Notes under the pieces: generated by a model
Told to the model about the DNA's origin: nothing
Database searches by the model: none
What the model saw: only the letters and a program-made list of their open reading frames with translations
Virus record (IMG/VR): IMGVR_UViG_3300032307_000369
Coordinates: 1 to 30,874 of that record
Length of the DNA stretch: 30,874 nucleotides
Reading direction: 5' to 3' (one strand)
DNA from: a virus
Shown: positions 1 to 19,891 of the stretch, one piece after another
Layout: each line of letters begins with the position of its first letter
Numbering within the stretch: the stretch's first letter is position 1
Program-made: the position numbers and the translations under genes

Positions 1-289
1 GGTCTTATCAGTGATCGCTACCTCGCGGTAGTGAGCAGGCTTGTCTAAATGAACTATTACTAGCGGAGTTATGTAGGCATACCTCCTTTGGCTGTGTCAC
101 CACAGTTATTCTTCGTAGACAGCAAGCCGCCTACAGGATGTTAAACCACCCTTAAATTCTTATACAACTGCACATTCTGGACCACGCATAGTAGGCATCG
201 GTCATCCTCCTACAGCTATTCAATGTGCATGTGTATAAGAACTTCTTATACTTCTAATTTTTAAAGAGCATTTACTAATTGCTTAGTAA
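1..289 (-). ncRNA. Putative structured non-coding RNA, 3' part outside window
   Basis: No credible gene lies here. Read on the minus strand it shows a hairpin at the predicted transcript start (272-289, 7-bp stem, GCAA loop), an 18-position long-range stem (159-176 with 222-239, two mismatches) enclosing a GTAGG/CCTAC stem (191-195 with 209-213), and two 5-bp hairpins closed by GNRA tetraloops (92-105, loop GUGA; 18-31, loop GCGA). GNRA loops appear only when the minus strand is read, which sets the strand. A consensus promoter at 296-324 faces into it. Large structured RNAs next to phage tRNAs (GOLLD and ROOL classes) are known; membership in either is not shown here. The end lies beyond base 1. 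Confidence 0.55.
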
Positions 290-295
290 GTATCT

Positions 296-324
296 ATTGT
301 AGCATTAACTTTCGTCTTTGTCAA
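296..324 (-). promoter_or_regulatory. Sigma70-like promoter for the left-end RNA
   Basis: On the minus strand TTGACA (319-324) and TACAAT (296-301) are separated by exactly 17 bases. The expected start is near 289, the first base of the GCAA hairpin. An A-rich tract lies just upstream of the -35 box. Confidence 0.75.
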
Positions 325-342
325 CACTTTTTTAAAAATATT

Positions 343-359: not shown

Positions 360-378
360 CATAGAAAACTTATTAGGG

Positions 379-448
379 GTGACTAACGGGGTTCGAACCC
401 GTACAAAGAGAATCACAATCTCTGATGCTACCATTACATCATAGTCAC
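379..448 (-). tRNA. tRNA-His (GTG)
   Basis: The acceptor stem GTGACTA/TAGTCAC, a D-arm, an AGAGA/TCTCT anticodon stem with loop TTGTGAT, and a T-arm all fold. Base 73 is C, as usual for tRNA-His, but position -1 is U rather than the expected G, and the following bases read CCT rather than CCA. Confidence 0.93.
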
Positions 449-449
449 A

Positions 450-655
450 CCTAATAAGTCTTATGTAGGCTACGAGTTTCCAGCTCGCCCCTACTTGAGT
501 TGCTCACCCTGTCACTGCGTTTTGATGTCTTAATAGTTGCAGTTCTATCCAGCGGTTCGGGAAAACATTTATGTTAACCTACCTTTTCGGGTCACCGCCC
601 CCGACCTATGACGCCAGGCTAGCGACACCGATAACATTCGGTGCTGACGGGATTC
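450..655 (-). ncRNA. Gene-free, hairpin-rich spacer between tRNA-Arg and tRNA-His
   Basis: About 205 bases without a gene. Inverted repeats include CACCGA/TCGGTG (626-631 with 638-643), CGCCAG/CTGGCG (612-617 with 655-660, reaching into the 3' end of tRNA-Arg) and a two-tier hairpin GTAGG/CCTAC (465-469 with 490-494) enclosing CGAG/CTCG (473-476 with 484-487). The word GCCTACATAA on the minus strand recurs in the left-end RNA. It may be a structured RNA or processed spacer of the tRNA transcript. Confidence 0.4.
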
Positions 656-730
656 TGGCGCGGCGGATAGGAGTCGAACCTACATAAGACACTTTAGAAG
701 AGTGTTGCCTTTCCATTAGACTACCGCCGC
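656..730 (-). tRNA. tRNA-Arg (TCT)
   Basis: Perfect 7-bp acceptor stem GCGGCGG/CCGCCGC, anticodon stem ACACT/AGTGT with loop CTTCTAA, normal T-loop TTCGACT, discriminator G and encoded CCA. Reads AGA codons. Confidence 0.95.
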
Positions 731-738
731 ATTACTTT

Positions 739-746
739 TATAAATA
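739..746 (+). promoter_or_regulatory. T4-type late promoter-like box
   Basis: TATAAATA lies 20 bases before the ATG of the oxygenase gene at 767. The T4 late promoter consensus is TATAAATA at -10. The predicted start would leave a short leader holding the AAGGGG ribosome site. No -35 box is needed for this class. Confidence 0.5.
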
Positions 747-766
747 TTGATTATTAAGGGGACTTC

Positions 767-1369
767 ATGATTACTTCAATTTTTCCAAACAAAGTGTTAA
801 TTAAAGACTTTGATTTGAGTGACGAGTGGAACAACAATGTTACAGCAATAGTAAAAGCCATATTTGCCAAAGAGTTGGCAGAAAGAGGCGATTATGCTGC
901 CGCCGGAAATGACAGTATTTCTGTGTTCACTGAAGAAAACATGAAAGTTTGCCCAGAACTTGTAGAACTAAGACAAATGTTTGTAGACTGCTTTTATGAG
1001 TTGGCTAGTTCATATACTACTAACAAACTCACAAAAGAAGACATTGAACAACGTGTTAGAAAAGATTTAGGTCGTTTACCCTTTATGAAAAAGAATGATT
1101 TCAAACGTGTTCATAATCATGATTCCATGGTAGATGCCTTTGCAATCTTTTATCTAACAGATTTAGATAATGAAAAAGATGGTGGAGAATTAATTCTACA
1201 TGATCCAAGTTTTTCTGGAGTGTTCAACTTCCATGAAAAAAGAACATTTGGTATTGCCACTAAAAAACATAGAATGGTCATTTGCCCAAACCATATTTGG
1301 CATGAAGTGTCAATGTACACTGGCGAAAAAGAACGTGCCACTATTGTGTTAAATCTTAACGCCATATAA
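767..1369 (+). CDS. 2OG-Fe(II) oxygenase family protein
   Basis: A 200 aa protein of the 2-oxoglutarate/Fe(II) dioxygenase superfamily. The jelly-roll part has candidate iron ligands at His116/His118 with Asp119 nearby and a distal His179, the family-typical Gly-Gly-Glu at 139-141 and a possible 2OG-binding Arg190. Such enzymes hydroxylate proteins, nucleic acids or small molecules; the substrate is unknown. AAGGGG precedes the ATG at a good distance and a TATAAATA box lies upstream. It is a plus-strand gene inserted between minus-strand tRNA genes, separate from the three oxygenases of the large operon, and clearly diverged from them. Confidence 0.8.
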   Translation: MITSIFPNKVLIKDFDLSDEWNNNVTAIVKAIFAKELAERGDYAAAGNDSISVFTEENMKVCPELVELRQMFVDCFYELASSYTTNKLTKEDIEQRVRKDLGRLPFMKKNDFKRVHNHDSMVDAFAIFYLTDLDNEKDGGELILHDPSFSGVFNFHEKRTFGIATKKHRMVICPNHIWHEVSMYTGEKERATIVLNLNAI

Positions 1370-1370
1370 T

Positions 1371-1455
1371 TGGTACCCCTCCTCGGATTCGAACCGAGAA
1401 ACCTACGGCACTCCTTTTGAGAGAGCTGACTTTACCAAAATTTGTCCAGAGGGGC
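1371..1455 (-). tRNA. tRNA-Leu (CAA)
   Basis: Acceptor GCCCCTC/GAGGGGT (first pair G-U), anticodon stem GCTCT/GGAGT with loop CTCAAAA, an 11-base variable region, T-loop TTCGAAT, discriminator A and encoded CCA. Reads TTG codons. Confidence 0.92.
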
Positions 1456-1463
1456 ATATTGAA

Positions 1464-1681
1464 TTTGTTGCAGTAGTTCCACCATCGTTATTGGAACCAT
1501 TCACCTGGATTAACTAGCCCGGGCAGGACTCGGTACGTCACTTGGGATACTTAACCAGCGTAGCAACCAATCTGCGAGGATCTTCCGATCCTCTGGGAGT
1601 TGAACCCATTTGCCTTCTACTATATCAGTCCTTCGAAGAAACCTCTATAGCGTGTTGTTCTCTTGCTGACACTACAACAAA
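1464..1681 (-). ncRNA. Putative 218-nt structured RNA with closing stem
   Basis: The whole gap between tRNA-Thr and tRNA-Leu is enclosed by an 11-bp pairing of its ends (1464-1474 with 1671-1681, one G-U). Inside are a 7-bp hairpin with a GGAA tetraloop on the minus strand (1576-1593) and a 6-bp stem (1476-1481 with 1492-1497). The GNRA loop sets the strand. A T-arm-like motif at 1594-1608 finds no matching acceptor, so this is not a tRNA. Class unknown. Confidence 0.6.
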
Positions 1682-1684
1682 ACT

Positions 1685-1759
1685 TGGTGCCCCAGGATGG
1701 AATCGAACCACCACACCCTGCTTACAAAACAGGACCTCTACCACTAAGGATACAAGGGC
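1685..1759 (-). tRNA. tRNA-Thr (TGT)
   Basis: Acceptor GCCCTTG/CTGGGGC with one internal mismatch, anticodon stem CCTGT/GCAGG with loop TTTGTAA, T-arm GGTGG/CCATC, discriminator A and encoded CCA. Reads ACA codons. Confidence 0.9.
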
Positions 1760-1765
1760 TAAAAT

Positions 1766-1841
1766 TGGTCTCCCTACTAGGATTCGAACCTAGACCACAC
1801 GGCCCCAAACCGCGGATGCAACCAGGTAACACTTTAGAGAG
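1766..1841 (-). tRNA. tRNA-Pro (TGG)
   Basis: Acceptor CTCTCTA/TAGGGAG with C1-G72 as typical of bacterial tRNA-Pro, anticodon stem CGCGG/CCGTG with loop TTTGGGG, T-arm CTAGG/CCTAG, encoded CCA. Reads CCA codons. Confidence 0.93.
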
Positions 1842-1848
1842 ATATAAT

Positions 1849-1943
1849 TGGCGGAAAGCAGAGGAGTCGAACCCCACCCGGCTCATCACCAGGACCCAGT
1901 TTTCAAGGCTGGTCGGGGAACCAACTCCCCTGCATTACTTTCC
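1849..1943 (-). tRNA. tRNA-Ser (TGA)
   Basis: Class II tRNA with a long variable arm. Acceptor GGAAAGT/GCTTTCC, anticodon loop CTTGAAA, discriminator G and encoded CCA. Reads TCA codons. Confidence 0.92.
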
Positions 1944-1949
1944 ATAACT

Positions 1950-2023
1950 TGGCGTACCTCCAGGGACTCGAACCCCGACGAACAGTTTTGGAGACTGTCA
2001 TGCTGCCATTACATTAGAGATAC
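1950..2023 (-). tRNA. tRNA-Trp (CCA)
   Basis: Acceptor GTATCTC/GAGGTAC, anticodon stem ACAGT/ACTGT with loop CTCCAAA, T-loop TTCGAGT, discriminator G and encoded CCA. Confidence 0.94.
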
Positions 2024-2029
2024 ATTAAT

Positions 2030-2107
2030 TGGAGTACGGGGTCGGATTTGAACCGACGGTTTTACGGATTTGCAATCCGATGCAATGGGCCGCTCTGCCA
2101 CCCGTAC
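2030..2107 (-). tRNA. tRNA-Cys (GCA)
   Basis: Perfect acceptor GTACGGG/CCCGTAC, anticodon loop TTGCAAA, T-loop TTCAAAT, discriminator U (a tRNA-Cys identity base) and encoded CCA. Confidence 0.94.
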
Positions 2108-2118
2108 ATAAATTAATT

Positions 2119-2193
2119 TGGTGGTAAAGGTGAGATTCGAACTCACACCGGGCACCGTATGAAGGTGTTGCACAACCATTATGCTACTTTACC
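2119..2193 (-). tRNA. tRNA with CAT anticodon (Met, or Ile2)
   Basis: Perfect acceptor GGTAAAG/CTTTACC, four-pair anticodon stem CACC/GGTG with loop TTCATAC, T-loop TTCGAAT, encoded CCA. G1-C72 argues against an initiator tRNA. Elongator Met and lysidine-modified Ile (ATA) cannot be separated by eye. Confidence 0.9.
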
Positions 2194-2200
2194 ATATAGA

Positions 2201-2290
2201 AACATACTCCGCAGGAATTGAACCTGCCTACCCGGGAATGTCCCGAGCTGTAATCCGCTACATCTGCTTGGCCTAAGCATTTGAATATGT
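2201..2290 (-). pseudogene. Aberrant class-II tRNA-like element
   Basis: A T-arm (GCAGG/CCTGC, loop TTCAATT), a D-arm-like hairpin TGCTT/AAGCA containing GGCC, and a long variable hairpin CGGGA/TCCCG are present. The ends pair over 9 positions. The anticodon arm is abnormal: TGTA/TACA closes a 6-base loop GCGGAT with no U33, so no anticodon can be read. Unlike nearly all its neighbours it has no encoded CCA. It is either a decayed tRNA or a tRNA-mimicking RNA. Confidence 0.5.
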
Positions 2291-2297
2291 TTTTATA

Positions 2298-2371
2298 TGG
2301 TAGGGGCACAGAGAATCGAACTCTGATTTACGGGTTAAAAGCCCGCTACTTTACCATTAAGTTATACCCCC
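2298..2371 (-). tRNA. tRNA-Lys (TTT)
   Basis: Acceptor GGGGGTA/TGCCCCT (first pair G-U), anticodon stem GCGGG/CCCGT with loop CTTTTAA, T-loop TTCGATT, discriminator A and encoded CCA. Confidence 0.93.
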
Positions 2372-2444
2372 ATCATCTTACCACTCTTGTCACTTTCCAT
2401 GACAGATCTCCTTTTTAAAGTTAAATTTTATTCATAAATACAAG

Positions 2445-2681
2445 ATGACACGTTTATATGCTTATCATTGTATAAAGAAATTTGTAACATTCTTTCCTAC
2501 ACCAGTATTTTTAATACTGTCTTTGTGTAGTATTTTTTATTTTGGTCCTCCTATGTGCGGAGGATTTGCTTACGAAATGGCACTAATGTGGTTTCTTATG
2601 GCACTAGCACATGCAAGACCTTGGATTGAATACATTGAAATCAAACGCTGTCCTAACGGATGCGGTTGCCACACTGAATAA
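2445..2681 (+). CDS. Small putative membrane protein
   Basis: A 78 aa protein not recognised. Residues 14-32 form a likely membrane segment, followed by a second hydrophobic stretch around 42-57, and the C-terminus is Cys-rich (Cys70, Cys74, Cys76) and could bind metal. No clear ribosome site precedes the ATG. CATAAATA ends 5 bases before the ATG, too close to act as a late promoter for this start. It is a plus-strand gene between minus-strand tRNAs, like the oxygenase at 767. Its reality rests on length and composition only. Confidence 0.45.
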   Translation: MTRLYAYHCIKKFVTFFPTPVFLILSLCSIFYFGPPMCGGFAYEMALMWFLMALAHARPWIEYIEIKRCPNGCGCHTE

Positions 2682-2684
2682 ACT

Positions 2685-2758
2685 TGGCAGAGGGTACTGG
2701 GATCGAACCAGTGATGACAGAGTCAAAGTCTGTAGTGTTACCGCTACACCAACCCCCA
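2685..2758 (-). tRNA. tRNA-Gln (TTG)
   Basis: Acceptor TGGGGGT/ACCCTCT with a weak first position (U1 opposite U72; bacterial tRNA-Gln has a weak first pair), anticodon stem ACAGA/TCTGT with loop CTTTGAC, discriminator G and encoded CCA. Confidence 0.92.
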
Positions 2759-2766
2759 ACAAAACC

Positions 2767-2842
2767 TGGTGCTACCTGTAGGAATCGAACCTACTTCAAC
2801 GGTGCTTCAAACCGCCGCTATGACCACATCAGCTAAAGTAGC
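2767..2842 (-). tRNA. tRNA-Phe (GAA)
   Basis: Acceptor GCTACTT/AGGTAGC, anticodon stem GCGGT/ACCGT with loop TTGAAGC, T-arm GTAGG/CCTAC, discriminator A and encoded CCA. Confidence 0.92.
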
Positions 2843-2843
2843 A

Positions 2844-2920
2844 TGGCCGGCCCTGAGAGACTCGAACTCCCAACCTCTAGTTTCGAAGACTAGCACTCTA
2901 ATCCATTGAGTTAAGGACCG
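2844..2920 (-). tRNA. tRNA-Arg (TCG)
   Basis: Acceptor CGGTCCT/AGGGCCG, anticodon stem CTAGT/ACTAG with loop CTTCGAA, T-loop TTCGAGT, discriminator G and encoded CCA. Reads CGA, complementing the TCT arginine tRNA at 656. Confidence 0.93.
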
Positions 2921-2928
2921 TAAAACTT

Positions 2929-3003
2929 TGGTACCCGAAGCAAGATTTGAACTTGCGACCAACGGCTTATCAAGCCGCTGCTCTACCACTGAGCTATCCG
3001 GGT
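2929..3003 (-). tRNA. tRNA-Ile (GAT)
   Basis: Acceptor ACCCGGA/TTCGGGT, canonical D-arm, anticodon stem GCGGC/GCCGT with loop TTGATAA, T-arm GCAAG/CTTGC, discriminator A and encoded CCA. Confidence 0.94.
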
Positions 3004-3079
3004 AAATTGCTAAGGGACACATTCTAATGTTGTTTGAGACTGAGCTGGGGGTCTGTGTTCAGCAAGTCTCCCTTCTAAC
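3004..3079 (-). other. Hairpin-rich spacer between tRNA-Asp and tRNA-Ile
   Basis: A 76-base gap whose ends pair (AAGGGA 3012-3017 with TCCCTT 3069-3074), with an inner AGACT/AGTCT stem. It contains no gene. It could be a small RNA or a processing spacer. Confidence 0.3.
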
Positions 3080-3155
3080 TGGCGCCGTGGACGGGAATCG
3101 AACCCGCCTAAATCGGATAGACAATCCGGTGCTCTACCCAGAGAACTACCACGGC
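3080..3155 (-). tRNA. tRNA-Asp (GTC)
   Basis: Perfect acceptor GCCGTGG/CCACGGC, anticodon loop TTGTCTA, T-arm GCGGG/CCCGT, discriminator G and encoded CCA. Confidence 0.94.
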
Positions 3156-3247
3156 ATATAACGTAAGGCTATGCGAGCTCATCTGCATACTTAGGCTTTT
3201 TGTCTTCTCCTGCCCGGGCAGTTACGACTGTAGCGTCACCTTATGAT
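3156..3247 (-). other. Hairpin-rich spacer between tRNA-Glu and tRNA-Asp
   Basis: A 92-base gap with no gene. It holds a perfect 12-base palindrome CTGCCCGGGCAG (3210-3221), a TATGC/GCATA hairpin (3170-3174 with 3185-3189) and a weak closing stem TAAGG/CCTTA (3164-3168 with 3239-3243). It may be a small structured RNA. Confidence 0.3.
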
Positions 3248-3322
3248 TGGCATCCTGCACGGGTATCGATCCCGTTCCTACACCTTGAAAGGGTGTTGAT
3301 CTAGCCAGTAATCTAGCAGGAT
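3248..3322 (-). tRNA. tRNA-Glu (TTC)
   Basis: Perfect acceptor ATCCTGC/GCAGGAT, anticodon stem ACACC/GGTGT with loop CTTTCAA, discriminator G and encoded CCA. The T-loop reads ATCGATA, so position 54 is A instead of the near-universal T. Confidence 0.92.
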
Positions 3323-3328
3323 ATAATT

Positions 3329-3414
3329 TGGTGGAGCCGGTTGGACTTGAACCAACAATGCACGGGGGCGGCGGATTTACAGTCCACTGGGGTTACCAAT
3401 TTTCCTACGACTCC
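3329..3414 (-). tRNA. tRNA-Tyr (GTA)
   Basis: Class II tRNA: acceptor GGAGTCG/CGGCTCC, anticodon stem GTGGA/TCCGC with loop CTGTAAA, GC-rich variable arm, discriminator A and encoded CCA. It is the first tRNA transcribed from the upstream promoters. Confidence 0.93.
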
Positions 3415-4096: not shown

Positions 4097-4125
4097 ATTG
4101 TATATTTTATTTAGTCTTTTGTCAA
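4097..4125 (-). promoter_or_regulatory. Sigma70-like promoter, proximal, for the tRNA region
   Basis: Minus strand TTGACA (4120-4125), 17-base spacer, TACAAT (4097-4102). A hairpin with stem TTTGTC/GACAAA and loop AAAA (4133-4148) lies just upstream. Confidence 0.75.
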
Positions 4126-4192: not shown

Positions 4193-4221
4193 ATTGTATA
4201 GTACTTGCTTGGCCTTGTCAA
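4193..4221 (-). promoter_or_regulatory. Sigma70-like promoter, distal, for the tRNA region
   Basis: Minus strand TTGACA (4216-4221), 17-base spacer, TACAAT (4193-4198). Lies just behind the last gene of the radical SAM operon, and 8 bases behind the hairpin at 4230-4249. Confidence 0.75.
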
Positions 4222-4249: not shown

Positions 4250-4819
4250 CTATTCTTTATCAGCAAGATTGAAGTCTACTGGGATTGCAAGCCTACACTG
4301 TCCTTGGAAAGGATTAACATAATGATACAGGAAACTAGGGAAGATTGCAAATTCTCCTGACTTTGGACTGTATACATTGGATTTAAATTTTGGCATCATC
4401 TCAAGTAGATAGCCTCTGTTTGCGTTGACTCTTGGATCTTCCAGTGTGAGTTCCCCACCCTTGCCATCTTCAACCAATAGATAAAAGACTCCAGTCATGT
4501 GGGATCCTGAGTGATTGTGATTGATCATAAAGTATCCAGGAGAATATCCTGCAACCCATCCACGTAGATAACTGTGTGGGTAATTGGACAAGTCCAAATC
4601 AAAAGATTCTTTTAAAAATGTAGCAAACGCAGGGAGTACTACTTCTGTTTTGAATCGTTCAATTATTGCTGACCCTGACTCAAATATGTTATCTTGAAGT
4701 ATATCGCTTGGCGGATTTTGTAAATCGTAAAGGGCAAACAGTTCACCAACTAGATCATTCAACAGATTCTGATCTTTGATTGAATCTTTAAGCACAGGTG
4801 TGGGCCAAAGATAGTTCAT
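4250..4819 (-). CDS. 2OG-Fe(II) oxygenase, last gene of the radical SAM operon
   Basis: 189 aa, resembling the putative 2OG-Fe(II) oxygenase family Pfam PF13759. Candidate iron ligands are His101/His103 in an N-H-N-H segment and His166; Gly121-Gly122-Glu123 and Asp128 mark the central strands and Arg176 is placed to bind 2-oxoglutarate. The ATG at 4819 is preferred over an upstream TTG at 4840, because the TTG would sit almost on top of its AAGGAG and the protein aligns from the ATG. Translation is probably coupled to the preceding gene, which ends 5 bases earlier. Substrate unknown; context suggests a protein or peptide also handled by the radical SAM enzymes. Confidence 0.85.
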   Translation of the reverse strand: MNYLWPTPVLKDSIKDQNLLNDLVGELFALYDLQNPPSDILQDNIFESGSAIIERFKTEVVLPAFATFLKESFDLDLSNYPHSYLRGWVAGYSPGYFMINHNHSGSHMTGVFYLLVEDGKGGELTLEDPRVNANRGYLLEMMPKFKSNVYSPKSGEFAIFPSFLYHYVNPFQGQCRLAIPVDFNLADKE

Positions 4820-4823
4820 TCCA

Positions 4824-5225
4824 TTAGTTAACAAGGTCAAACTCCTTTAAAAAATACATCTTTACATCTGGTATAATACCAATCTCTTCATTAAAATCAA
4901 AACCTACTGCATTCAGTATCTTATTGTATGTATCTTTATCCTGCTCGTAGGGAACATAGTATGGATCGTTGCCATGTAGCAATTCTGGATCATTTAGTGA
5001 TTCGTAAAAATCCTCACTAAAATGCTGGTTAAGCCATCGAGCATAGCATATGGCAACTACATAACTCTTAGCAGGATATACCCAACCTAATTCTGTTGTT
5101 GTAAAATACTTAATGGCGTTTTCTACTATTTCATCTCGTACTTCAACTTTGTGCAGACTTAGATCATCATCGTGTTCAGTATTGAGTCTGTGAAATATCT
5201 CTTGACGTATCTTCCATTCTTTCAT
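4824..5225 (-). CDS. Unknown protein of the radical SAM operon (133 aa)
   Basis: Not recognised. The protein is acidic and aromatic-rich with likely helices and no cysteine cluster, signal or membrane segment (only Cys at about residue 60). It overlaps the end of the upstream radical SAM gene by 50 bases, unusually long for this operon, and ends 5 bases before the next oxygenase. It could be a partner or substrate-recognition protein, but nothing in the sequence shows this. Confidence 0.7.
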   Translation of the reverse strand: MKEWKIRQEIFHRLNTEHDDDLSLHKVEVRDEIVENAIKYFTTTELGWVYPAKSYVVAICYARWLNQHFSEDFYESLNDPELLHGNDPYYVPYEQDKDTYNKILNAVGFDFNEEIGIIPDVKMYFLKEFDLVN

Positions 5226-6126
5226 AATATTCTAATAATCCTCGATAGCCATTACAACTGTTGGTTAGATCTCTAACGTATCTGTAATGTTCTGTTAAAC
5301 AATGACCCTTAAAAGGACAACTTTGACATATTGGGCTTAGACTTTGTTTTTCTTTTTCTGCCCAAGCAATGTATTCCTCAAAACTGTCTAGTTCTAAGAA
5401 GTATTCGTTATCGTTGAGATCAAACTCTAAAACAGCAAAATTTCCTTTAGGAGTAATGTACACATGGTCATCACTAAAACTGTTATATATTTTATCTAAA
5501 CTATCTTGTATATGATATTCATTGATAAACTCAAACTTCTTCTCTACTGGACTCTCTAACCACTTGATAACAAAGTTTTCAAAATCTCTGTGTGACACAC
5601 TGTGACAGTTGGCTTGGTTGGTGCTGTATGGTTTGATCTCAACTGATGATACTGCACTGCACATATTCAATTCATGTATCATGCTATCAACATCTAGGTC
5701 AATTAATTTTTTACTGGCTAGGATAAGAACGTATAAAGGCTTTTGAGACATCAGCATATTTTGATATACAGTTTCATTTTTTTCTCTAGCTTCAAAATCG
5801 TAGCTGACACTGAGCGTAATGTCATCGTCAAAGAACCAATCATGTATCATACTGTAGTTGGTTATGATATTAATAGAACCTGTATAATATTTTTTAATGG
5901 TACGTTTTAGTTCATAAAATTCTTCACGTTTTAAAATTCCAATTTCACCACCATACAAATCAATACCTTTAATTTTTGTATGTGCTGTAATTTGTTGTAG
6001 ACGTGTTTCTAACTGCTCAGAACTAATAGTCAATCTGTCACGTAGCTGTTGAGGAGTTAGGTAACAGAAGTTGCAACTAAAATTACAATAGTACGTTGGG
6101 TTAATGGATACTGTAACTTCACGCAT
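5176..6126 (-). CDS. Radical SAM protein with C-terminal Cys cluster
   Basis: 316 aa. Cys14, Cys18 and Cys21 form the CxxxCxxC motif for the SAM-binding 4Fe-4S cluster, and a GGE-type SAM motif follows near residue 60. Near the C-terminus a cluster of cysteines (CxxC, then C and C, residues about 263-290) resembles a SPASM/twitch auxiliary-cluster domain, seen in peptide-modifying radical SAM enzymes. It overlaps the end of the previous radical SAM gene by 8 bases. Reaction and substrate unknown; anaerobic-type chemistry on a protein or peptide is an inference from domain type and neighbours. Confidence 0.85.
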   Translation of the reverse strand: MREVTVSINPTYYCNFSCNFCYLTPQQLRDRLTISSEQLETRLQQITAHTKIKGIDLYGGEIGILKREEFYELKRTIKKYYTGSINIITNYSMIHDWFFDDDITLSVSYDFEAREKNETVYQNMLMSQKPLYVLILASKKLIDLDVDSMIHELNMCSAVSSVEIKPYSTNQANCHSVSHRDFENFVIKWLESPVEKKFEFINEYHIQDSLDKIYNSFSDDHVYITPKGNFAVLEFDLNDNEYFLELDSFEEYIAWAEKEKQSLSPICQSCPFKGHCLTEHYRYVRDLTNSCNGYRGLLEYYERMEDTSRDISQTQY

Positions 6127-7189
6127 ATTCTTTTACATACTCTGTTGGTTCTAAAATGCCTGACATGTTATTAGCTTCAATGATCTTAGGCGCGAGTGCC
6201 TTCATGCGTATACAATGTGCCTCTACTAGATTGAAATCTTTTAGGTCTTTGATTGTTTTGCGACAGCCGTTACAAATTTCAAACATTGGACAAGTGTAAC
6301 ATGCTTGCTTCAAACTTTGTAGTTCAGGCTCTACTCTTAATGGGAAGATCTTTTTACCTAACATCTCTTCTTTAAAATTGATTGAGTACAGTCTGTCATC
6401 TCCAAATGATCCACAACTGTAGTAGTCCCCGCTTGGTTGTAGTGTTCTAATACCGCCATCACATTTACGATTTTGTGGACATGATGTTGCGCCACCGTTT
6501 AATCGCTTGACCATTTGTTTAGTATTAAACTCCCATTCAGTCAACCCTAGTTCCCAAATCTTAACATATATTTCGTAAATCTTTGCCAGCATGTAGGGTT
6601 TGCCCTCTTGTCCCATTACAATGTTTTTAAATTTAACAGGGGGACCACTACTAAAAGCATAGTTGAGTTTACATTCAACACCCATCTTCTTAGCAAGCTC
6701 TACATTCTTAATGGCAAGATGTTCATTCTCTTCTGTAATAACACTAATAAAGTCTGGACGATAACCCACGTGCTCTAACATAGCATCACTTACAGCCCAA
6801 AAATCTTCTTCACTAAATTCTGTAAGGTCACCCTTTAATCTTCCGCCACCGTATTGGAATGATGTAGTAATACCCATGCGTTTGTGATTAAACAACTCTT
6901 TCCACTTGCTGGGATTTTTATAAAATGGCCAAAGATTAGATGTAAAACTTAACGTGGCATTAGAACCAATAGTTTCTAAATGTTCAATAATTTTCCAGTA
7001 GTAGCTAGGATCCATCATTAAAGGATCACCACCATTAACAATGATAGTTTGTGTTTCTGGGTAGCGTTTTAAAAATGCGTAGACATACTCTAAATCTAAT
7101 TCTAAAGATTTATCTTCAGTAATGTGTGTGCTACTACAGAACGTGCATTTAAAGTTACAACGTTCTGTTGGTTTAATTATTAAATCCAT
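6119..7189 (-). CDS. Radical SAM/SPASM protein
   Basis: 356 aa with CxxxCxxC at Cys11, Cys15, Cys18 and an N-G-G-D SAM motif near residue 52. The C-terminal part has a full-looking SPASM set: Cys in a C-x5-C pair, a GxxTLQPSGDYYSCG segment, then C-x2-C-x5-C-x2-C and a last Cys. SPASM enzymes modify ribosomal peptides or act in protein maturation using extra Fe-S clusters. Separated by one base from the 97 aa gene upstream and overlapping the next radical SAM gene. Confidence 0.9.
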   Translation of the reverse strand: MDLIIKPTERCNFKCTFCSSTHITEDKSLELDLEYVYAFLKRYPETQTIIVNGGDPLMMDPSYYWKIIEHLETIGSNATLSFTSNLWPFYKNPSKWKELFNHKRMGITTSFQYGGGRLKGDLTEFSEEDFWAVSDAMLEHVGYRPDFISVITEENEHLAIKNVELAKKMGVECKLNYAFSSGPPVKFKNIVMGQEGKPYMLAKIYEIYVKIWELGLTEWEFNTKQMVKRLNGGATSCPQNRKCDGGIRTLQPSGDYYSCGSFGDDRLYSINFKEEMLGKKIFPLRVEPELQSLKQACYTCPMFEICNGCRKTIKDLKDFNLVEAHCIRMKALAPKIIEANNMSGILEPTEYVKEYA

Positions 7190-7190
7190 T

Positions 7191-7484
7191 TTATTTTGAC
7201 AGTGGACTGCCTACTTCCAAATTGCCATCACCTCTTTCTAAACCATTCAATTGACGTATAACGTCCATGATTAAATGCTTATATTTCTGTGTAGGTCCTT
7301 CAAGTTCTTTAATCTTGGCATCCCAGTAATCTCTTTTCTCTGGAATCTCCATATCCCTAACGCAATTATTAGCGTATACCAAATACTCTTGGCAATAAAT
7401 TTCACGCTGTGCTTCGTACTTTTCTTTTAAAGAAATAAGTTCTTCTGGACTTAGGGTGTCTAAATCTACTCCATGGTCAATCAT
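7191..7484 (-). CDS. Small helical protein between two radical SAM genes
   Basis: 97 aa, not recognised. Mostly charged helix with possible coiled coil (residues 13-35 and 55-85), two cysteines (Cys31, Cys41) and a Gly/Ser-rich tail. Its ATG overlaps the stop of the cobalamin-type radical SAM gene (ATGA). Being small and placed between two radical SAM genes it could be a carrier or substrate, but it has no leader/core pattern that would prove it. Confidence 0.65.
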   Translation of the reverse strand: MIDHGVDLDTLSPEELISLKEKYEAQREIYCQEYLVYANNCVRDMEIPEKRDYWDAKIKELEGPTQKYKHLIMDVIRQLNGLERGDGNLEVGSPLSK

Positions 7485-9112
7485 GTTATTCTCCTAAATA
7501 GCTCATTCATTATTACTAATTTGTTTTCTTCAACCCAACGAGGAATGGCTTCAGTCCTTACCACACCTTTGATAGTATTAATATTTCTAGGCGGAGTATC
7601 AGGATTTAAAATGTCTTCAATTTCATCATAGATCTCTTGATACCCATCTAAAATTTTAAAAATCTCCCAACAGTGTTTTGCAAATTCACTCACAGTAACA
7701 CTGTCTTTAAACATGTCATACATTGTTCGTATTAAATTGTTGCCTGCAAAATTCATGAAAAACATTTGCACAACATCTTCTCTTGTAAAAGAATAGCTAC
7801 TGGCAACTGTTTTATAATATGTTCTGCGATTCTTAAATAATCCGCCTTGGTTGGCAATATCCTGTTCATCAACGTTGTCAGTATATACATCAACCAGCTC
7901 AATGTTGTAAATTTCTTGATAAACAGGATCACTAATTTCGCTGTCAGGTAACGCCATTAAGTCGTAACGCCAACTTGACCATGCTCCCAAATCATAAAAC
8001 AATTCCCATTCTGCATAAAAATCATCTAAGGTACTTCCTGGCATGGCCATGATAAGTTCCATGCCAGGATGATAATCATATTTGGCACATAGATCCCGCA
8101 TGTATTTGCCAAGTTTAATTTTATCTGAGACTTTCATATCAGTGCGTTTAGCAACTTGCATTGCAACATCACTGATGCTTTGAATACTGATGTTGGGCAC
8201 AATGGCTGCTCTATCTTTTCTACCAAACGGTTGAATGATCTCAAAGAAACTATCTACTAGTCTTTTTCTTCTTTCGTAGTCTTTTGTTTTTACTTGACTG
8301 ATATCAATGAAGGTTAACCCTGCATCTTTGGCAAACTTTAAGAGTCCTAAGTCACGTTCTTCAAACACACCAAAATTAGCATCAGCACAAATAGCTTCAG
8401 TATATCCTGCTTCTACAATAGCAACACAATCCCGTTGAGCCCATTCAACTTCTTTTTTAATAATTTTTCCACCAATGCCGCCACCCCATTCACAATAGGT
8501 ACATTTAAAAGGACAACCTCTTGTGGTCTCAATGACCATCATGAGTTCCATATCGTGTTCACGACCATAGGCACTGAGTTCTTTTAGGAAACTTAGATTC
8601 TCTTCATACGGACTTGCTAGTGGAAATTCCCAACGCTGTTGTTTATTAGAACGTAACTCATAAGTGATTTGATTGACATCAATATTATCTTCAATGTATT
8701 GATCAATTACGTCAGTGACAAAGAATTCACCAGGGAACATAGGGCGTAAAATATAATCATACATCCAACGTTTTTGCCAAAGCTCTTTGTCTTTGGCTCC
8801 TATCATTGGACCACCTAGCAAATTTACTACTTTTGGATTTTGTTTTTTAACGTATTCAGCAATGTTGTCGCACAGTGTATAATTCCAAACATAACTGCTG
8901 TACATGACTATATCAGCTTCTTTAATTAGCTCATATATCTCTTCAATGTTTTGATACTTGTTATATTTGTAAGGAGGTTCTAGCCATTCAACTTGATCGG
9001 CGTATTTTCCGTTATGCTCGTAAAAACTTTTGCATAGCATCCACGTGACTGGATTGATTAAACTCCAGTCGGCATGTGGCGGATTGATAAAGGCTATTTT
9101 GATTCTTTTCAT
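7481..9112 (-). CDS. Radical SAM protein with probable cobalamin-binding N-terminus
   Basis: 543 aa. The N-terminal ~150 residues (FINPPHADWSL at 8-18, a hydrophobic VNLLGGP at 96-102) resemble the B12-binding domain of class B radical SAM enzymes, though no clear DxHxxG is visible. Cys200, Cys204 and Cys207 form CxxxCxxC inside the typical TTRGCPFKCTYCEWG. B12 radical SAM enzymes typically methylate unreactive carbons, but ring rearrangements and other chemistries exist. No ribosome site precedes the ATG and a weak promoter lies at 9123-9151, so it may also be expressed by itself. Confidence 0.88.
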   Translation of the reverse strand: MKRIKIAFINPPHADWSLINPVTWMLCKSFYEHNGKYADQVEWLEPPYKYNKYQNIEEIYELIKEADIVMYSSYVWNYTLCDNIAEYVKKQNPKVVNLLGGPMIGAKDKELWQKRWMYDYILRPMFPGEFFVTDVIDQYIEDNIDVNQITYELRSNKQQRWEFPLASPYEENLSFLKELSAYGREHDMELMMVIETTRGCPFKCTYCEWGGGIGGKIIKKEVEWAQRDCVAIVEAGYTEAICADANFGVFEERDLGLLKFAKDAGLTFIDISQVKTKDYERRKRLVDSFFEIIQPFGRKDRAAIVPNISIQSISDVAMQVAKRTDMKVSDKIKLGKYMRDLCAKYDYHPGMELIMAMPGSTLDDFYAEWELFYDLGAWSSWRYDLMALPDSEISDPVYQEIYNIELVDVYTDNVDEQDIANQGGLFKNRRTYYKTVASSYSFTREDVVQMFFMNFAGNNLIRTMYDMFKDSVTVSEFAKHCWEIFKILDGYQEIYDEIEDILNPDTPPRNINTIKGVVRTEAIPRWVEENKLVIMNELFRRIT

Positions 9113-9122
9113 AGATTATACT

Positions 9123-9151
9123 ATTATACAGCATAAAGTTAACAATTACAA
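9123..9151 (-). promoter_or_regulatory. Possible internal promoter of the operon
   Basis: Minus strand TTGTAA (9146-9151), 17 bases, TATAAT (9123-9128). The -35 is 4/6. The implied start would be about 4 bases from the ATG of the cobalamin-type gene, giving a leaderless message. Confidence 0.35.
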
Positions 9152-9661
9152 GCCTTCTACATTATAAGTGAAACTAGCAAGTCTTCGTGTAATTTTACTT
9201 TTACTAGCTCTATGGAAAAAGCCAGGAGTTTGATTGAGCAACACTAAATCTCCTTTTTTAGGATAGTAAGTGTCAATGTTACCTTCCCCGGGCCATTTGA
9301 ATTGTATTTCCCCACCAGTTGCAGGGTTCTGGTCATCAAAGTAAAATAAGAAGAAGATATTACCTCCTTCAAATCCATCGTTGTGCCAAATACTGCTGTC
9401 AGCATCTACACCTTCAGCAATAACATAACTCATAAAATTATTCTTTGGAAACGCTTGATTAATGTATTTTTCAGTTATGTATACTTTGGCTGCTTCCATT
9501 TGCAACACTACTTCTTTAGGCAGGTTATCTTTAAAGTTATCACGCAAACGCTCTTCATGATATTGAAACTCTACGCTATCAATATCGATCATGCTGGCTA
9601 ATTCTTCTTCTCTAAAATAAGCATATCCTTTAGTAAGGAAATCATTCTTCCAATCTAACAT
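9146..9661 (-). CDS. 2OG-Fe(II) oxygenase
   Basis: 171 aa with a clear HxD...H iron triad: His93, Asp95 and His150, plus Gly116-Gly117-Glu118 and an Arg159/Arg160 pair for 2-oxoglutarate binding. It is closer to the prolyl-hydroxylase-like group than the two PF13759-like oxygenases of the operon. One base separates it from the preceding radical SAM gene. Likely hydroxylates a protein or small molecule made in the pathway. Confidence 0.87.
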   Translation of the reverse strand: MLDWKNDFLTKGYAYFREEELASMIDIDSVEFQYHEERLRDNFKDNLPKEVVLQMEAAKVYITEKYINQAFPKNNFMSYVIAEGVDADSSIWHNDGFEGGNIFFLFYFDDQNPATGGEIQFKWPGEGNIDTYYPKKGDLVLLNQTPGFFHRASKSKITRRLASFTYNVEGL

Positions 9662-9662
9662 C

Positions 9663-10685
9663 TCATTTCTCCAGTTTCATTTGTACGTATTTAAATGACT
9701 TTTTAAAAACACACTCATCTAAGTCTTTGGTTAATTCTTTATAGTCACTGCTGATAAAACAACTGAACCCGCATTTTTGATAAAACTCACAAGTAAAGCA
9801 ATTGCGTTCATTCATAAAGTTTTGAATAATAGCTGTGCCTTCTAAATTGGATGTGACATTGTTTTTCATCAACACACTTCCTGAACACCCTTTAGGTGAA
9901 GTGTTATCGTACATAATAGTAAAACTACTACCACGTGTACAAGCCATTTTATTGTTGGGTGCAGTTCCTAAAAATGATTCTACATTCATAGTCTTAGGAT
10001 ACTTATCAATTAATGTTTTATAAAATTCATACAACTCTGACTCTTTTGGCATCATTACTTTTAATGCGTTATGACCAGGTAACAAGTGATCCCATGTCAT
10101 GGTAAAGTTATTGTACAAGTAATCGTGATACTCGTCACCCTTTAAAAGATTAGCAATATTTTGTTTAGTGATTACCAGGCTGATTAATTTAACATAAGGT
10201 TTGAACTGTTCAATATTTTGTTTAAAAATTTCAAACTGAGCAGGATTAAATCTGCCAGCTAGGTCATAACTAACACTCATAGTCAAGTCGTATTTTTGAC
10301 AAAACTGTATCACATGATCCATTCTATCGTTAACTAAATTCGTAACAAAGTTGAAGATTAACACTTTATCCTTAGGAACTTTGTTTCGAACTTGTTTTAT
10401 GAATTCGCCGTAATACTCAATAAAGCCTTGATCTATTAGTTCATCCTGAAATAGTTCGCCACCCATAATATGTAGGTGAAATTCTTTGTTTTTATTATTT
10501 TTAATCCAATTGCATACAGGGTCAACTTTTTTTAGAATTTCCTCTTGGCTCAAACCAATACGACTGTTATGATCCTGTGGACAGAATACACAACTCATAT
10601 TGCAATGTTCAAAGAAGTTGACTACGATCTCAGACCAGTCAATTACTTTTTCCTTTATTACGCCATAAAAAAATTCATCACTCAT
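9663..10685 (-). CDS. Radical SAM protein with C-terminal Cys cluster
   Basis: 340 aa; Cys28, Cys32, Cys35 form CxxxCxxC and a GGE SAM motif lies near residue 75. The C-terminal region carries several cysteines including C-x2-C-x5-C-x3-C around residues 297-310 and a final Cys, like a SPASM or twitch domain. ATGA overlap with the upstream 380 aa gene. Substrate not known; the neighbours are an oxygenase and an unknown paralogue pair. Confidence 0.87.
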   Translation of the reverse strand: MSDEFFYGVIKEKVIDWSEIVVNFFEHCNMSCVFCPQDHNSRIGLSQEEILKKVDPVCNWIKNNKNKEFHLHIMGGELFQDELIDQGFIEYYGEFIKQVRNKVPKDKVLIFNFVTNLVNDRMDHVIQFCQKYDLTMSVSYDLAGRFNPAQFEIFKQNIEQFKPYVKLISLVITKQNIANLLKGDEYHDYLYNNFTMTWDHLLPGHNALKVMMPKESELYEFYKTLIDKYPKTMNVESFLGTAPNNKMACTRGSSFTIMYDNTSPKGCSGSVLMKNNVTSNLEGTAIIQNFMNERNCFTCEFYQKCGFSCFISSDYKELTKDLDECVFKKSFKYVQMKLEK

Positions 10686-11824
10686 GCAAACACCATTTGT
10701 TTTAATCTAGGATCGTTATTATTTTTTAACTCATACACAAGTTGTAGAATATAATTATTCCATTTTTGTACATGGGTTAGTATATCAAATACAATACTAA
10801 CGTTGTCCTTTTCAAAGTCTTTCTTTAGTATGCTGTTTATCTGTTCAGACGTCATGTTATCACGATTTTGAATCAGTGACCTTAACGTGTCAAAAACAAA
10901 ATGGGCATGATTACTTTCAAAGTAGTCTTCATCTAGTAATCTTATCTTATCATCTATTTGAATATCTTTGAACCAAAACTCTTGTAAGAATTTTCCAAGT
11001 TCTAATATTTCATCAATGTGTGCTAGAAAGTAAGCACTGTCCCTAGTTATGAACTTTAATTCGTTGTCAAACATCCAATATAACTTTGGATGAGATCTAA
11101 GTTTTTCTCTCCAACAATCATCGTCCCAAGATATATCTAAATCAAATGCTTCTTTTACATTTGCTTGCATGAAGTACTTGATAAAATAGAAGTACCACTC
11201 GCTAACTTCCATGGCTAATGCTTTTGATAACACATAGATGTATTTGTCTTTAAAAACTTCAATATGTGTTTCATCATTGAAAAAGTTTGCAAGATGCCAT
11301 TCAATACTGAATCCTTCAATGTGCTGTTTAACCCATTGTTGTCTTAGACCATTGTCACTCCATGGATTTAGATTATCAAATAATTCAATAAATTGTTTTT
11401 TGTTTAAGAACTCTATGTCAAGTATACTTGTTTTATTAAAATCCATAAAACTACTATTCAGCACTATAGCAGGGAAATGTAGTTTTGATCTTTGTACAGA
11501 TGCATTATAGCAACAAAATGCCAAGTTAGCATCCATGTTAGGAAAAATTGTTTTTATCCAGTTTACAAAGATGATATTAAAAGCATCCATGTCAACATAA
11601 AAGTTAAGTTTAGCTTCGTGCTCTAAACTGAGTAATAGTGAATGCCAATCTTTATAAGCACCATTTGCGCCCACTAGGTCTGCATACGTTGTAGCTTGAT
11701 GCTTGATTGGGTTTAGTGTAGACTTTTGTGCAACATTGGGATTTTTACTGACGATGATTCTTTTTTTAGAATTGTTGACTAGATAGTCTGGAGAGACATA
11801 TATTTTATTAAAAAGGTGTAACAT
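10682..11824 (-). CDS. Unknown protein, paralogue of the 12395-13555 product
   Basis: 380 aa. It shares with the 386 aa neighbour an N-terminal M-x-HLF-x-K-x-Y start, an A/D-DLVG motif (48-52), a YVD motif (76-78) followed by NWIK (88-91), and a similar overall helical, aromatic-rich composition. No catalytic motif, signal or membrane segment is seen. The family is unknown to me. Two diverged copies flanking an oxygenase inside a modification operon suggest a role as scaffold or substrate-binding partner; this is only inference. TAATG overlap with the upstream oxygenase. Confidence 0.8.
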   Translation of the reverse strand: MLHLFNKIYVSPDYLVNNSKKRIIVSKNPNVAQKSTLNPIKHQATTYADLVGANGAYKDWHSLLLSLEHEAKLNFYVDMDAFNIIFVNWIKTIFPNMDANLAFCCYNASVQRSKLHFPAIVLNSSFMDFNKTSILDIEFLNKKQFIELFDNLNPWSDNGLRQQWVKQHIEGFSIEWHLANFFNDETHIEVFKDKYIYVLSKALAMEVSEWYFYFIKYFMQANVKEAFDLDISWDDDCWREKLRSHPKLYWMFDNELKFITRDSAYFLAHIDEILELGKFLQEFWFKDIQIDDKIRLLDEDYFESNHAHFVFDTLRSLIQNRDNMTSEQINSILKKDFEKDNVSIVFDILTHVQKWNNYILQLVYELKNNNDPRLKQMVFA

Positions 11825-12369
11825 TATACAATCCTTTTATATTGATCTACATAAGATTCGTACCCGTCAGTGTTAATATATAAATCAAATGGCATGCACA
11901 ATCTTGTTCCCGGTCCACGATGAGTTAGTACTTCATGTCCTAAATAACTAGGGAAGATTAATAGGTCGCCAGGTTCTGGATGAATTTCAACTGGGTTGAA
12001 CCAACTTTGATTGATGTTAATTTGTTGTGATGGAGGATGTAATACGATTTCTCCTCCAGTTGCAGTTTGAAGATAAAATATCCCAGATAACCATCCCCAA
12101 GGATGCCAATGCCAACGAGCACTGTCTCCAGGCTCAATATACAGCATATTGCCGTTTAATTTTACCTCTGCACCTTTAGGTAGCTCTTCTTTCCAAGTTT
12201 CTGAAACAGCACTCATGATTTTTTCATAAAGTTTAGCTGTGAACTCGTCAGTGTCTTTAAACCATTTATTTTCGTGCTTGCTTACAACATCACTTTGAAA
12301 CATGAGTGTTGCCAACTCTTCGTTACCATGCTCATAATGTATTTTAGTTGGCCAAATTTCTCTTTTCAT
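11824..12369 (-). CDS. 2OG-Fe(II) oxygenase
   Basis: 181 aa, typical of the PF13759-like putative oxygenases: His87/His89 in a W-H-W-H-P segment followed by WLSGIFYL, Gly105-Gly106-Glu107, the PEPGDLLIFPS stretch, distal His145 and Arg156. AAAGG precedes the ATG. It sits between the two paralogous unknown proteins, whereas the operon's other oxygenases neighbour radical SAM genes. Confidence 0.88.
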   Translation of the reverse strand: MKREIWPTKIHYEHGNEELATLMFQSDVVSKHENKWFKDTDEFTAKLYEKIMSAVSETWKEELPKGAEVKLNGNMLYIEPGDSARWHWHPWGWLSGIFYLQTATGGEIVLHPPSQQININQSWFNPVEIHPEPGDLLIFPSYLGHEVLTHRGPGTRLCMPFDLYINTDGYESYVDQYKRIV

Positions 12370-12394
12370 TTAAACGCCTTTATAACACATTTGG

Positions 12395-13555
12395 TTATTG
12401 GATCACAAATGCGTTTAATTTAGATATTTGATTTTCTTTGTACAGTTGTTTTATATGCGCTAAGAGATAGATGTTATATCTAATTTTATCGTCAGAACCA
12501 AAAATTAGAAATTCTGTAACATTACTAGAACCGTCTATTTCATTCATAATTAGAGTTTCTAAATCGCTGTCAGTCAATTCAGATTTTCTACACATAGTAA
12601 AAACTTCTTTATTATGATTGATCCAGTTCAAGCCATTCTCGCCTGGATCATTTAATAATCCCAATGTCCAGTAAATGGTCAAGTGAGCTTTAAATTTTTC
12701 AAACTGTGAAGCAGTAATGTTGTTAAAATAAATCAAGCTATCGCTGTGTGGAACCGCAATTGATTCAACTCCCCAAATAGAAGAAGAGAACCAAATATCA
12801 AATGCAGGGTCTTCAACGGCTTCAGCTAGATTACTAGTAGTATACGTCTTTGTTGGACTGAATAAGTTTATGACATCTGGATTTAATAAATTTTCTATAA
12901 TGAAGCTTTTGCATTCATAAAAAGATTCTTGCATACCAAACTGTCTTTTGTTCAGTGCTATTGTTTTTAATTGTTCTTTACATGACCCATTGGCTAGATA
13001 AGATGCCAATAATAGTTCTAGACTTAAATCTGATTTAACTAGATTAACAAAACCATTGTACACGCTTGAATCTACATTGATTTGATAAAATACTTGACTA
13101 AACTCTTGTTGACTAATAAAATCTGCAATTTGAGTTTCTCTATAAGATCTTGAATAATTGTAGTATGTAGATGTTCCAAACATTCTAGTTTGAAACTGGT
13201 AAGTTGATACCATAGTATATGCATCATCAACTGTAGCTGACGGCAATACTGCTTTGATCCATGTGATTACAATCTTTAAAAAGTTTTCTTTATCTACATA
13301 TACAATGAGTTTTCTATCGCTAGTAAATGTATATTGATTTAACGAATTTAAAAATAACAGAAAGTTAGAATATTTTTTATCTTCTCCAACTAAATCGTCA
13401 ATTGATCTTGCATATTCGATCAACCTTCCATGCGCTACTCCATCAAGGTCTTGGAGCATACTAACTCCATTGGTTTGAGAAATAACAAGTCTGTCGTTGT
13501 TAACATCAATAACATCGTCAGATTCTAAATAAACTTTTTTAAACAGATGGAACAC
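12395..13555 (-). CDS. Unknown protein, paralogue of the 10682-11824 product
   Basis: 386 aa starting at a GTG preceded by GAGGAGA. N-terminus MFHLFKKVYL, DDLVG at 53-57, YVD at 86-88 and TWIK at 98-101 align with the 380 aa paralogue; the C-terminal halves have diverged more. Predicted soluble and helical. The start overlaps the end of the previous gene by 17 bases. Function unknown. Confidence 0.8.
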   Translation of the reverse strand: MFHLFKKVYLESDDVIDVNNDRLVISQTNGVSMLQDLDGVAHGRLIEYARSIDDLVGEDKKYSNFLLFLNSLNQYTFTSDRKLIVYVDKENFLKIVITWIKAVLPSATVDDAYTMVSTYQFQTRMFGTSTYYNYSRSYRETQIADFISQQEFSQVFYQINVDSSVYNGFVNLVKSDLSLELLLASYLANGSCKEQLKTIALNKRQFGMQESFYECKSFIIENLLNPDVINLFSPTKTYTTSNLAEAVEDPAFDIWFSSSIWGVESIAVPHSDSLIYFNNITASQFEKFKAHLTIYWTLGLLNDPGENGLNWINHNKEVFTMCRKSELTDSDLETLIMNEIDGSSNVTEFLIFGSDDKIRYNIYLLAHIKQLYKENQISKLNAFVIQ

Positions 13556-14252
13556 TTTGAATCTCCTCGATATCTCTTTTCATTGCTTCAACGAAATCAT
13601 CAGGATTAAACTTGTCAACGACAATCGCCCATGTTATAATGAAAATAGAGTTGTTGGGGTTAGCCCAATAATGGTATAAATTTTTACCTTTAAAAATATA
13701 GTCGTTAAAATATACTTCATGATACTTGAAGTTTTTGCTGTCTACAGTACTGTAGAAATCATAAAAATCATCATACTTCAATAATGATACAAAATTAATT
13801 CCAATGGTTAAATTGTTATCAAATCTTGGAGCTTGCTTAATTTGCTCTTTATAATTGTCATCATTAATTGAATATGTATTAAAATATAATAGGCTATCTA
13901 GTATACTAGCCCATACATCTAGTAGCTCTTTGTTTGCTTTGATAAACTCAGTATAACCAAAGTCATTTACTCCCTTATATTGCAGTAATAAACGTATGGC
14001 TTCTTTTTCTAAGAAAGGAATATTGACTAGAAAAGGTGAATTTAAATAATCAAGTAATAGCCCGTCAGCTAACTCAGTGTGTGCTTCTAACTTGATATCT
14101 GAAGGAATATCTAAATTACTAAGATAAGTTAATAACTTTGTCCCTTTCAAATCGCTGTTTTCATAATCAATTAGATAAAATGTTTCTTTATCAGCAAAAT
14201 ATTTTTTTAATTCTTCAATTTTAATAGGCGCAGTTGTTTCAATAATTTTCAT
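13539..14252 (-). CDS. Unknown protein (237 aa)
   Basis: Not recognised. Soluble, rich in Tyr, Phe, Asp and Lys, with no cysteines and no obvious motif. Composition resembles the two larger unknown proteins that follow but I could not align it to them convincingly. Its ATG overlaps the stop codon of the Cys-His-tailed protein (ATGA), so the two are made together; a chaperone or partner of that protein is one possible role. Confidence 0.75.
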   Translation of the reverse strand: MKIIETTAPIKIEELKKYFADKETFYLIDYENSDLKGTKLLTYLSNLDIPSDIKLEAHTELADGLLLDYLNSPFLVNIPFLEKEAIRLLLQYKGVNDFGYTEFIKANKELLDVWASILDSLLYFNTYSINDDNYKEQIKQAPRFDNNLTIGINFVSLLKYDDFYDFYSTVDSKNFKYHEVYFNDYIFKGKNLYHYWANPNNSIFIITWAIVVDKFNPDDFVEAMKRDIEEIQSVPSV

Positions 14253-14848: not shown

Positions 14849-14849
14849 C

Positions 14850-19890: not shown

Positions 19891-19891
19891 T

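Follow-up and report, generated by a model that had tools for sequence, protein, structure and literature searches.

What RNA is made from the left end of the virus record IMGVR_UViG_3300032307_000369, where a promoter faces a gene-free stretch rich in hairpins beside a large array of tRNA genes? The window analysed here is the 30,874-nt stretch from positions 1 to 30,874 of this linear record of 245,550 bases; base 1 of the window is base 1 of the record, i.e. a contig edge. An earlier sequence-only reading had suggested GOLLD, ROOL, or a new class. Comparison with homologous contigs indicates that the minus strand very probably carries the beginning of a transcription unit for GOLLD, with its promoter, leader, module-bearing stem, and GOLLD 5' region. 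ROOL is not supported, and the suggestion of a new class holds only for a 66-nt module within the stem. GOLLD itself is already known, and its cage is among the largest RNA-only cages known; what is new here is the portable 66-nt module and its swap site.

Promoter, strand and leader

The start of the unit and its immediate surroundings carry the following features:

296 to 324, minus strand: promoter TTGACA-N17-TACAAT, from a pattern match, with a similar one upstream of GOLLD homologs
273 to 288, minus strand: leader hairpin UACUAA-GCAA-UUAGUA with a GCAA tetraloop, from the fold, at the inferred transcription start (about 289)
154 to 244, minus strand: leader stem abutting GOLLD and holding interchangeable modules, from the inverted repeat 154–176/222–244, the fold (z −4.4), and homologs
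376 to 3414, minus strand: array of 16 tRNA genes, immediately upstream of the RNA and on the same strand

The promoter, read from 324 to 296, fires leftward off the contig and has a TG one base ahead of its −10 hexamer. Exact copies of its pattern number three in the window, where shuffling predicts 0.01, and five in the whole record, where the reversed control has none. The two other exact copies in the window (4097–4125 and 4193–4221, minus strand) lie upstream of the tRNA array. Downstream of the promoter the folded stretch holds no open reading frame of at least 40 amino acids, and the sequence-only reading had called it gene-free; that reading had also placed the first hairpin at the predicted start, which agrees with the position of about 289 given by promoter spacing. 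ARAGORN and Rfam call nothing at 1–290, and neither a tRNA nor a tmRNA lies there by the cloverleaf and T-arm test.

Over 290 nt, none of 200 shuffles folds as well as the minus strand (z −3.5). Folding energy is nevertheless modest evidence, because the plus strand also reaches z −3.1. Most of the minus-strand signal comes from the stem, since 154–244 alone gives z −4.4 and 1–150 alone only −1.3. The long stem reported earlier is real: 154–176 pairs with 222–244 and is 87% complementary over 23 nt. Within it, the repeat AACTTCTTATAC / AAATTCTTATAC (window 240–251 and 154–165) lets the outer 5' arm pair with either its 3' partner or an upstream copy. This alternative pairing, also present in L267 and L269, is a possible switch. 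The decisive evidence for an RNA is covariation in homologs.

Several further observations concern the neighbourhood. Window 449–655, between tRNA-His and tRNA-Arg, is gene-free, with no phage BLAST match and ordinary folding energy, and another gap in the array (1456–1684) contains a T-arm-like sequence that ARAGORN does not call as a tRNA. Judged by motifs only, an open reading frame run at 4250–18152 (minus strand) resembles several radical SAM enzymes and iron-dependent oxygenases; it includes the protein at 14249–14848 (C-terminal CHVSCHSNCHNSRGRR) and resembles a peptide-modification cluster. The right end of the record consists of tail genes, with no continuation of the RNA. In L002, at 19870–20000, the right end of the record breaks off within a tandem repeat coding DPKATAT units, likely an assembly break. 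A search with neighbouring proteins found one relative, which carries neither the tRNAs nor the RNA.

Identity of the RNA as a GOLLD 5' region

Rfam scans of the window, taken up to E 5 over 1–800, returned only tRNAs and a weak RAGATH-7 match that was judged to be chance. The GOLLD model RF02032 was found neither in the window nor in the 245-kb record, which stops short of the expected position. This model describes the GOLLD 3' region only (universally conserved, 416 positions), and Rfam missed GOLLD here because that region would lie beyond the contig edge. The covariance-model search proposed by the sequence-only reading gave no GOLLD or ROOL match in the window itself, and GOLLD downstream in homologous contigs.

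A not-GOLLD reading, based at first on the fact that most loci of the 66-nt module lack GOLLD, was overturned by a search with an exact 23-mer from the GCGA hairpin (window 33–11, minus strand). This 23-mer matched 10 IMG/VR contigs, nine of which have RF02032 downstream on the same strand at 181–218 bits. L270 is 97% identical to window 1–177, and its RF02032 match begins 272 nt beyond the point equivalent to window base 1. Identity to window 1–330, promoter included, is 80–81% in L267, L269, and L274 (L267 from window 301). From these homologs, the GOLLD 3' region is expected about 270 nt past the contig edge. A looser motif retrieved 31 IMG/VR contigs, and RF02032 is present in 30 of them (29 above the cut-off); the one exception, L271, is cut by its own contig edge. 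Promoters like that at 324–296 stand upstream of the GOLLD homologs L267, L269, L270, L271, L281, L284, and L291.

The helices of this region are as follows:

about 1 to 152 (to 158), minus strand: GOLLD 5' region, first helices, cut by the contig edge, from identity with L270 and covariation
135 to 152, minus strand: helix AGGGUG/CAUCCU (helix 1), from covariation
115 to 134, minus strand: hairpin with a CUUG or UUCG tetraloop in most homologs (helices 2 and 3), from covariation
92 to 105, minus strand: GNRA hairpin with a GUGA loop (helix 4), all five pairs changed on both sides somewhere
65 to 86, minus strand: helix GGAG/CUCC (helix 5), from covariation
53 to 64, minus strand: short hairpin with a GUAA loop (helices 6 and 7), from covariation
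18 to 31, minus strand: GNRA hairpin with a GCGA loop (helix 8), source of the exact 23-mer common to 10 contigs

Across 21 homologs, 99.1% of cells in these helices form standard pairs and 24 of the 33 pairs have changed on both sides; the covariation score is 0.515, against 0.182 for shuffled and at most 0.134 for slid alignments. The sequence-only reading had named GCAA (288–273), GUGA (105–92), and GCGA (31–18) hairpins. All are present, a fourth GNRA loop, GUAA (64–53), can be added, and the GUGA, GUAA, and GCGA hairpins all lie within the covarying 5' helices. Absence of covariation, which that reading had offered as grounds for giving up a structured RNA, was not what homologs showed: the RNA covaries, and its promoter and its folding point to the same strand. 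That reading had not stated which strand is used, that the contig edge cuts the RNA short, or that a conserved 66-nt module is present.

The locus shares with GOLLD members a homologous 5' region whose helices and GNRA loops are conserved, and like them it sits in a phage genome near tRNA genes (a virus record with 16 same-strand tRNAs). That the stretch is instead an unrelated large RNA with some borrowed hairpins is very improbable; the part of GOLLD that Rfam models is missing from the window, as this reading would have it, but against it stand a contig that matches 177 nt at 97% identity and has GOLLD where it would be expected, and the same linkage in 30 of 31 contigs. ROOL identity is not supported by sequence comparison, as the ROOL covariance model (Rfam 15) has no match in the window, even with E up to 5 over 1–800. 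The GOLLD of this phage may also be truncated or diverged, as the 3' region is absent from the record.

A 66-nt module at a swap site in the leader stem

A search with a 17-mer taken from the long stem's tip uncovered a family of small phage RNAs, of which the window copy has these parts:

166 to 232, minus strand: 66-nt phage RNA module, made up of P1, conserved GAAUA junction, P2, 13-nt loop AGGAUGACCGAUG, and conserved GUGGUCCAG, from models R1 and R2 and covariation
186 to 216, minus strand: module P2 hairpin (5' strand 216–209, 3' strand 195–191 and 188–186, loop 208–196), from covariation
180 to 203, minus strand: candidate loop contact of GACC (203–200) with GGUC (183–180), from 24 sequences, geometry uncertain

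The consensus comprises a P1 of about 11 or more pairs, the junction, P2, the loop AGGNNGRYCGAUG, and the 3' segment RUGGYCC, with about 25 strongly conserved core nucleotides and variable stems. Model R1, which has the window in its training set, gives the window copy 71.5 bits. Model R2, built from cultured phages only and with the window excluded, still gives it 56.8 bits (E 1.3e-12), which places it within the family of 66-nt tRNA-cluster RNAs; R2 also recovers the 19 uncultured members put in the test. Among 24 diverse members, 94.6% of cells pair and 20 of 23 pairs show both-side changes, with at least one such change in each of the eight P2 pairs. The covariation score is 0.856, compared with 0.212 after shuffling and no more than 0.181 after sliding; for 45 distinct rows in an alignment fitted to the model, it is 1.03 compared with 0.23 shuffled.

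The contact between GACC and GGUC is a candidate. It has one covarying pair (14 A–U and 10 G–C) and no mismatch in the 24 sequences, and one lineage, Limestonevirus, breaks it with an A·C. Its geometry, with only 2 nt spanning an 8-bp helix, would be tight within one molecule.

The loop also contains AGG and AUG, which resemble a ribosome binding site, and the AUG is present in 44 of 44 members checked. That the module encodes a short leader peptide nevertheless has almost no probability: the frame over the conserved 3' part varies by indels (27, 9, and 8 members in three frames), the peptides are not conserved, and the AUG is lost in Klebsiella phage cp20 (L135). Peptide coding was rejected because the reading frame is not conserved. 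The family is not in Rfam and is undescribed in the open-access journal literature searched; it may be contained in large, unnamed collections of predicted phage RNAs. The 66-nt module is a well-supported RNA family, absent from Rfam and from the papers searched.

In the window, the module-bearing stem stands directly ahead of the first GOLLD helix. The same stem, with flanks TTATACACATGCACA...TGTGCAGTTGTATAAGAA, occurs in L267, L269, and L270 with a tRNA-like insert bearing a GGTTC-type T-arm, and L275 has a similar stem with an insert of the same kind. The L270 insert forms a cloverleaf whose variable arm is long; those of L267, L269, and L275 fold less clearly. The T-arm motif is also found at the stem site in L280, L281, and L291, a bare hairpin in L284 and L282, and other sequences in L268, L271, L285, L290, and L293. 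In six contigs (L266, L278, L279, L286, L288, and L296), a promoter-like sequence intervenes between the upstream sequence and GOLLD, which argues that the leader module is a neighbour sometimes fused to the GOLLD transcript and not an integral domain. The 66-nt module occurs in none of the 31 other GOLLD contigs, so its fusion with GOLLD is seen once. A stem flank, CATATTGAA...TTTCAATATG, is common to the module in L084 and to a different module upstream of GOLLD in L266; this sequence match suggests that modules are exchanged at stems.

Distribution, possible roles and comparison with known RNAs

BLAST with the 48-nt core of the module finds 300 cultured phage records (RefSeq and GenBank duplicates counted), and it is also found in metagenomic phages. 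Carriers include Ackermannviridae (CBA120 L137, Magnus L138, RC-2014 L139, and SKML-39 L142), Schitoviridae (PhAPEC5 L130, JWDelta L132, and cp20 L135), Kuravirus (WFI101126 L134), and Chaseviridae (Mangalitsa L140 and 4HA13 L141). The module usually lies in gene-free gaps or tRNA clusters, and no RNA annotation for it exists in any record inspected. All 29 records counted, and the record of the window as well, contain a single copy. Contigs related by tail tube, mostly short fragments, lack it.

A pattern scan of 84,980 bacterial genomes gave 68 matches, none accepted as a member on inspection; no match was found in E. coli genomes, and those in plasmids were partial and weak. On these results, an origin of the module in bacterial chromosomes is unlikely.

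Other structured sequences accompany the module at some of these loci. A permuted tmRNA gene in L090 has it between its two halves. L100 has GOLLD (11234–11702) and a free-standing module (14326–14391) about 2.6 kb apart. In the Ackermannviridae tRNA gaps of L138, L137, and L143, a second unannotated, stem-closed RNA module (CAGAGTGTAGAGGCTACAGTAGTGCGCACCTCACGGAATGCTACACCGGACACTCTG) lies beside the 66-nt one; sequences like it are found in 361 phage records, some of them from phages of about 110 kb, a size that looks T5-like. A conserved gene-free unit of Ackermannviridae tRNA clusters, ATGGGTGTGAAACGAAAG...CGCCCACCA (L137 2290–2420 and L138 2370–2485), has a tRNA-like CCA end and is followed by other repeated units. 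The Kuravirus loci L134 and L262–L265 differ at one locus in the module, extra RNA units, and tRNA-like sequence.

This distribution bears on what the module does. Theta (HDV-like) ribozymes sit beside phage tRNAs (PMC10879173), and the module might likewise cleave itself, as a ribozyme that would trim the leader of GOLLD at this locus and the 3' ends of tRNAs at others. Its modelled P1 begins 2–6 nt past a tRNA 3' end in L084, L085, L089, L094, L099, L102, L135, and L147, and a conserved core with variable stems would suit such an activity. Self-cleavage is unlikely, however: the outer stem is simply nested, and covariation describes a plain P1–P2 hairpin where HDV-like ribozymes have a nested double pseudoknot with a catalytic C. 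In L084 and L094, the stem reaches into the CCA end of the tRNA; the module also lies far from tRNAs (Chaseviridae L140 and L141), and no Rfam ribozyme family matches it, HDV included.

Somewhat more probable, though still doubtful, is that the module acts in cis in the transcription units of tRNAs and GOLLD, either by binding RNA polymerase for antitermination or as a site where RNases enter or are kept off. All tRNAs that ARAGORN finds up to 3 kb from a member share the strand of the module; the module follows directly behind the promoter leader in the window, lies near the start of some arrays (L099 and L085), and is single in each record. It is nonetheless placed in the middle or late in other arrays (L097 and L089), and it is missing from GOLLD homologs and from some phages of Kuravirus.

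A portable, trans-acting RNA is favoured because the same core recurs in different phage families and settings, is not tied to a set place with respect to a gene, and can occupy the place of tRNA-like domains. The homology to GOLLD, the strand, the sequence of the promoter, the covariation, the swap site, and the fact that the module exists independently are established. The transcript would be made during infection, and its GOLLD part may form a cage of RNA like the nanocage that cryo-EM has shown for another GOLLD (PMC12286853); no function of GOLLD is known in the literature (PMC12286853). Tentatively, the leader module may be a separately functional, tRNA-sized RNA that GOLLD displays or carries here, that is released from tRNA-cluster transcripts elsewhere, and that binds a host factor which also sees tRNA-like RNAs. 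A broader and more speculative proposal is that the 66-nt RNA represents a class of portable phage small RNAs, exchanged horizontally among unrelated lytic phages and acting in trans on a conserved host component (e.g. as a decoy that draws off enzymes of tRNA handling or defence systems aimed at tRNAs), with GOLLD cages as scaffolds that would display or carry such interchangeable modules on the leader stem.

A leader stem that is empty, tRNA-like, or module-loaded offers a concrete handle on what the GOLLD cage might carry or display. The role of the module is directly testable, because the cultured E. coli phages Bas90, Bas96, and CBA120 carry it and a natural relative, Bas93, lacks it at the same Kuravirus position where Bas90 has it. 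More generally, phage tRNA clusters contain conserved structured RNAs that annotation has overlooked.

Among known systems, GOLLD (RF02032) shares with this locus the homologous 5' region, phage origin, adjoining tRNA array, and own promoter, with the Rfam part downstream in homologs; the locus differs in that its 3' region is cut off and its leader-stem module is not shared by the related contigs. ROOL is likewise a large phage RNA near tRNA islands (PMC12286853), but homologs of the window carry GOLLD. Theta ribozymes resemble the module as small structured phage RNAs often directly downstream of a tRNA, whereas the module has a nested stem with a possible single loop contact, other conserved sequence, and locations away from tRNAs. 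From the tRNA-like or tRNA inserts of other GOLLD RNAs the module differs in having no cloverleaf and no T-arm motif, and it shares with them (L267, L269, L270, and L275) the position at the tip of the stem.
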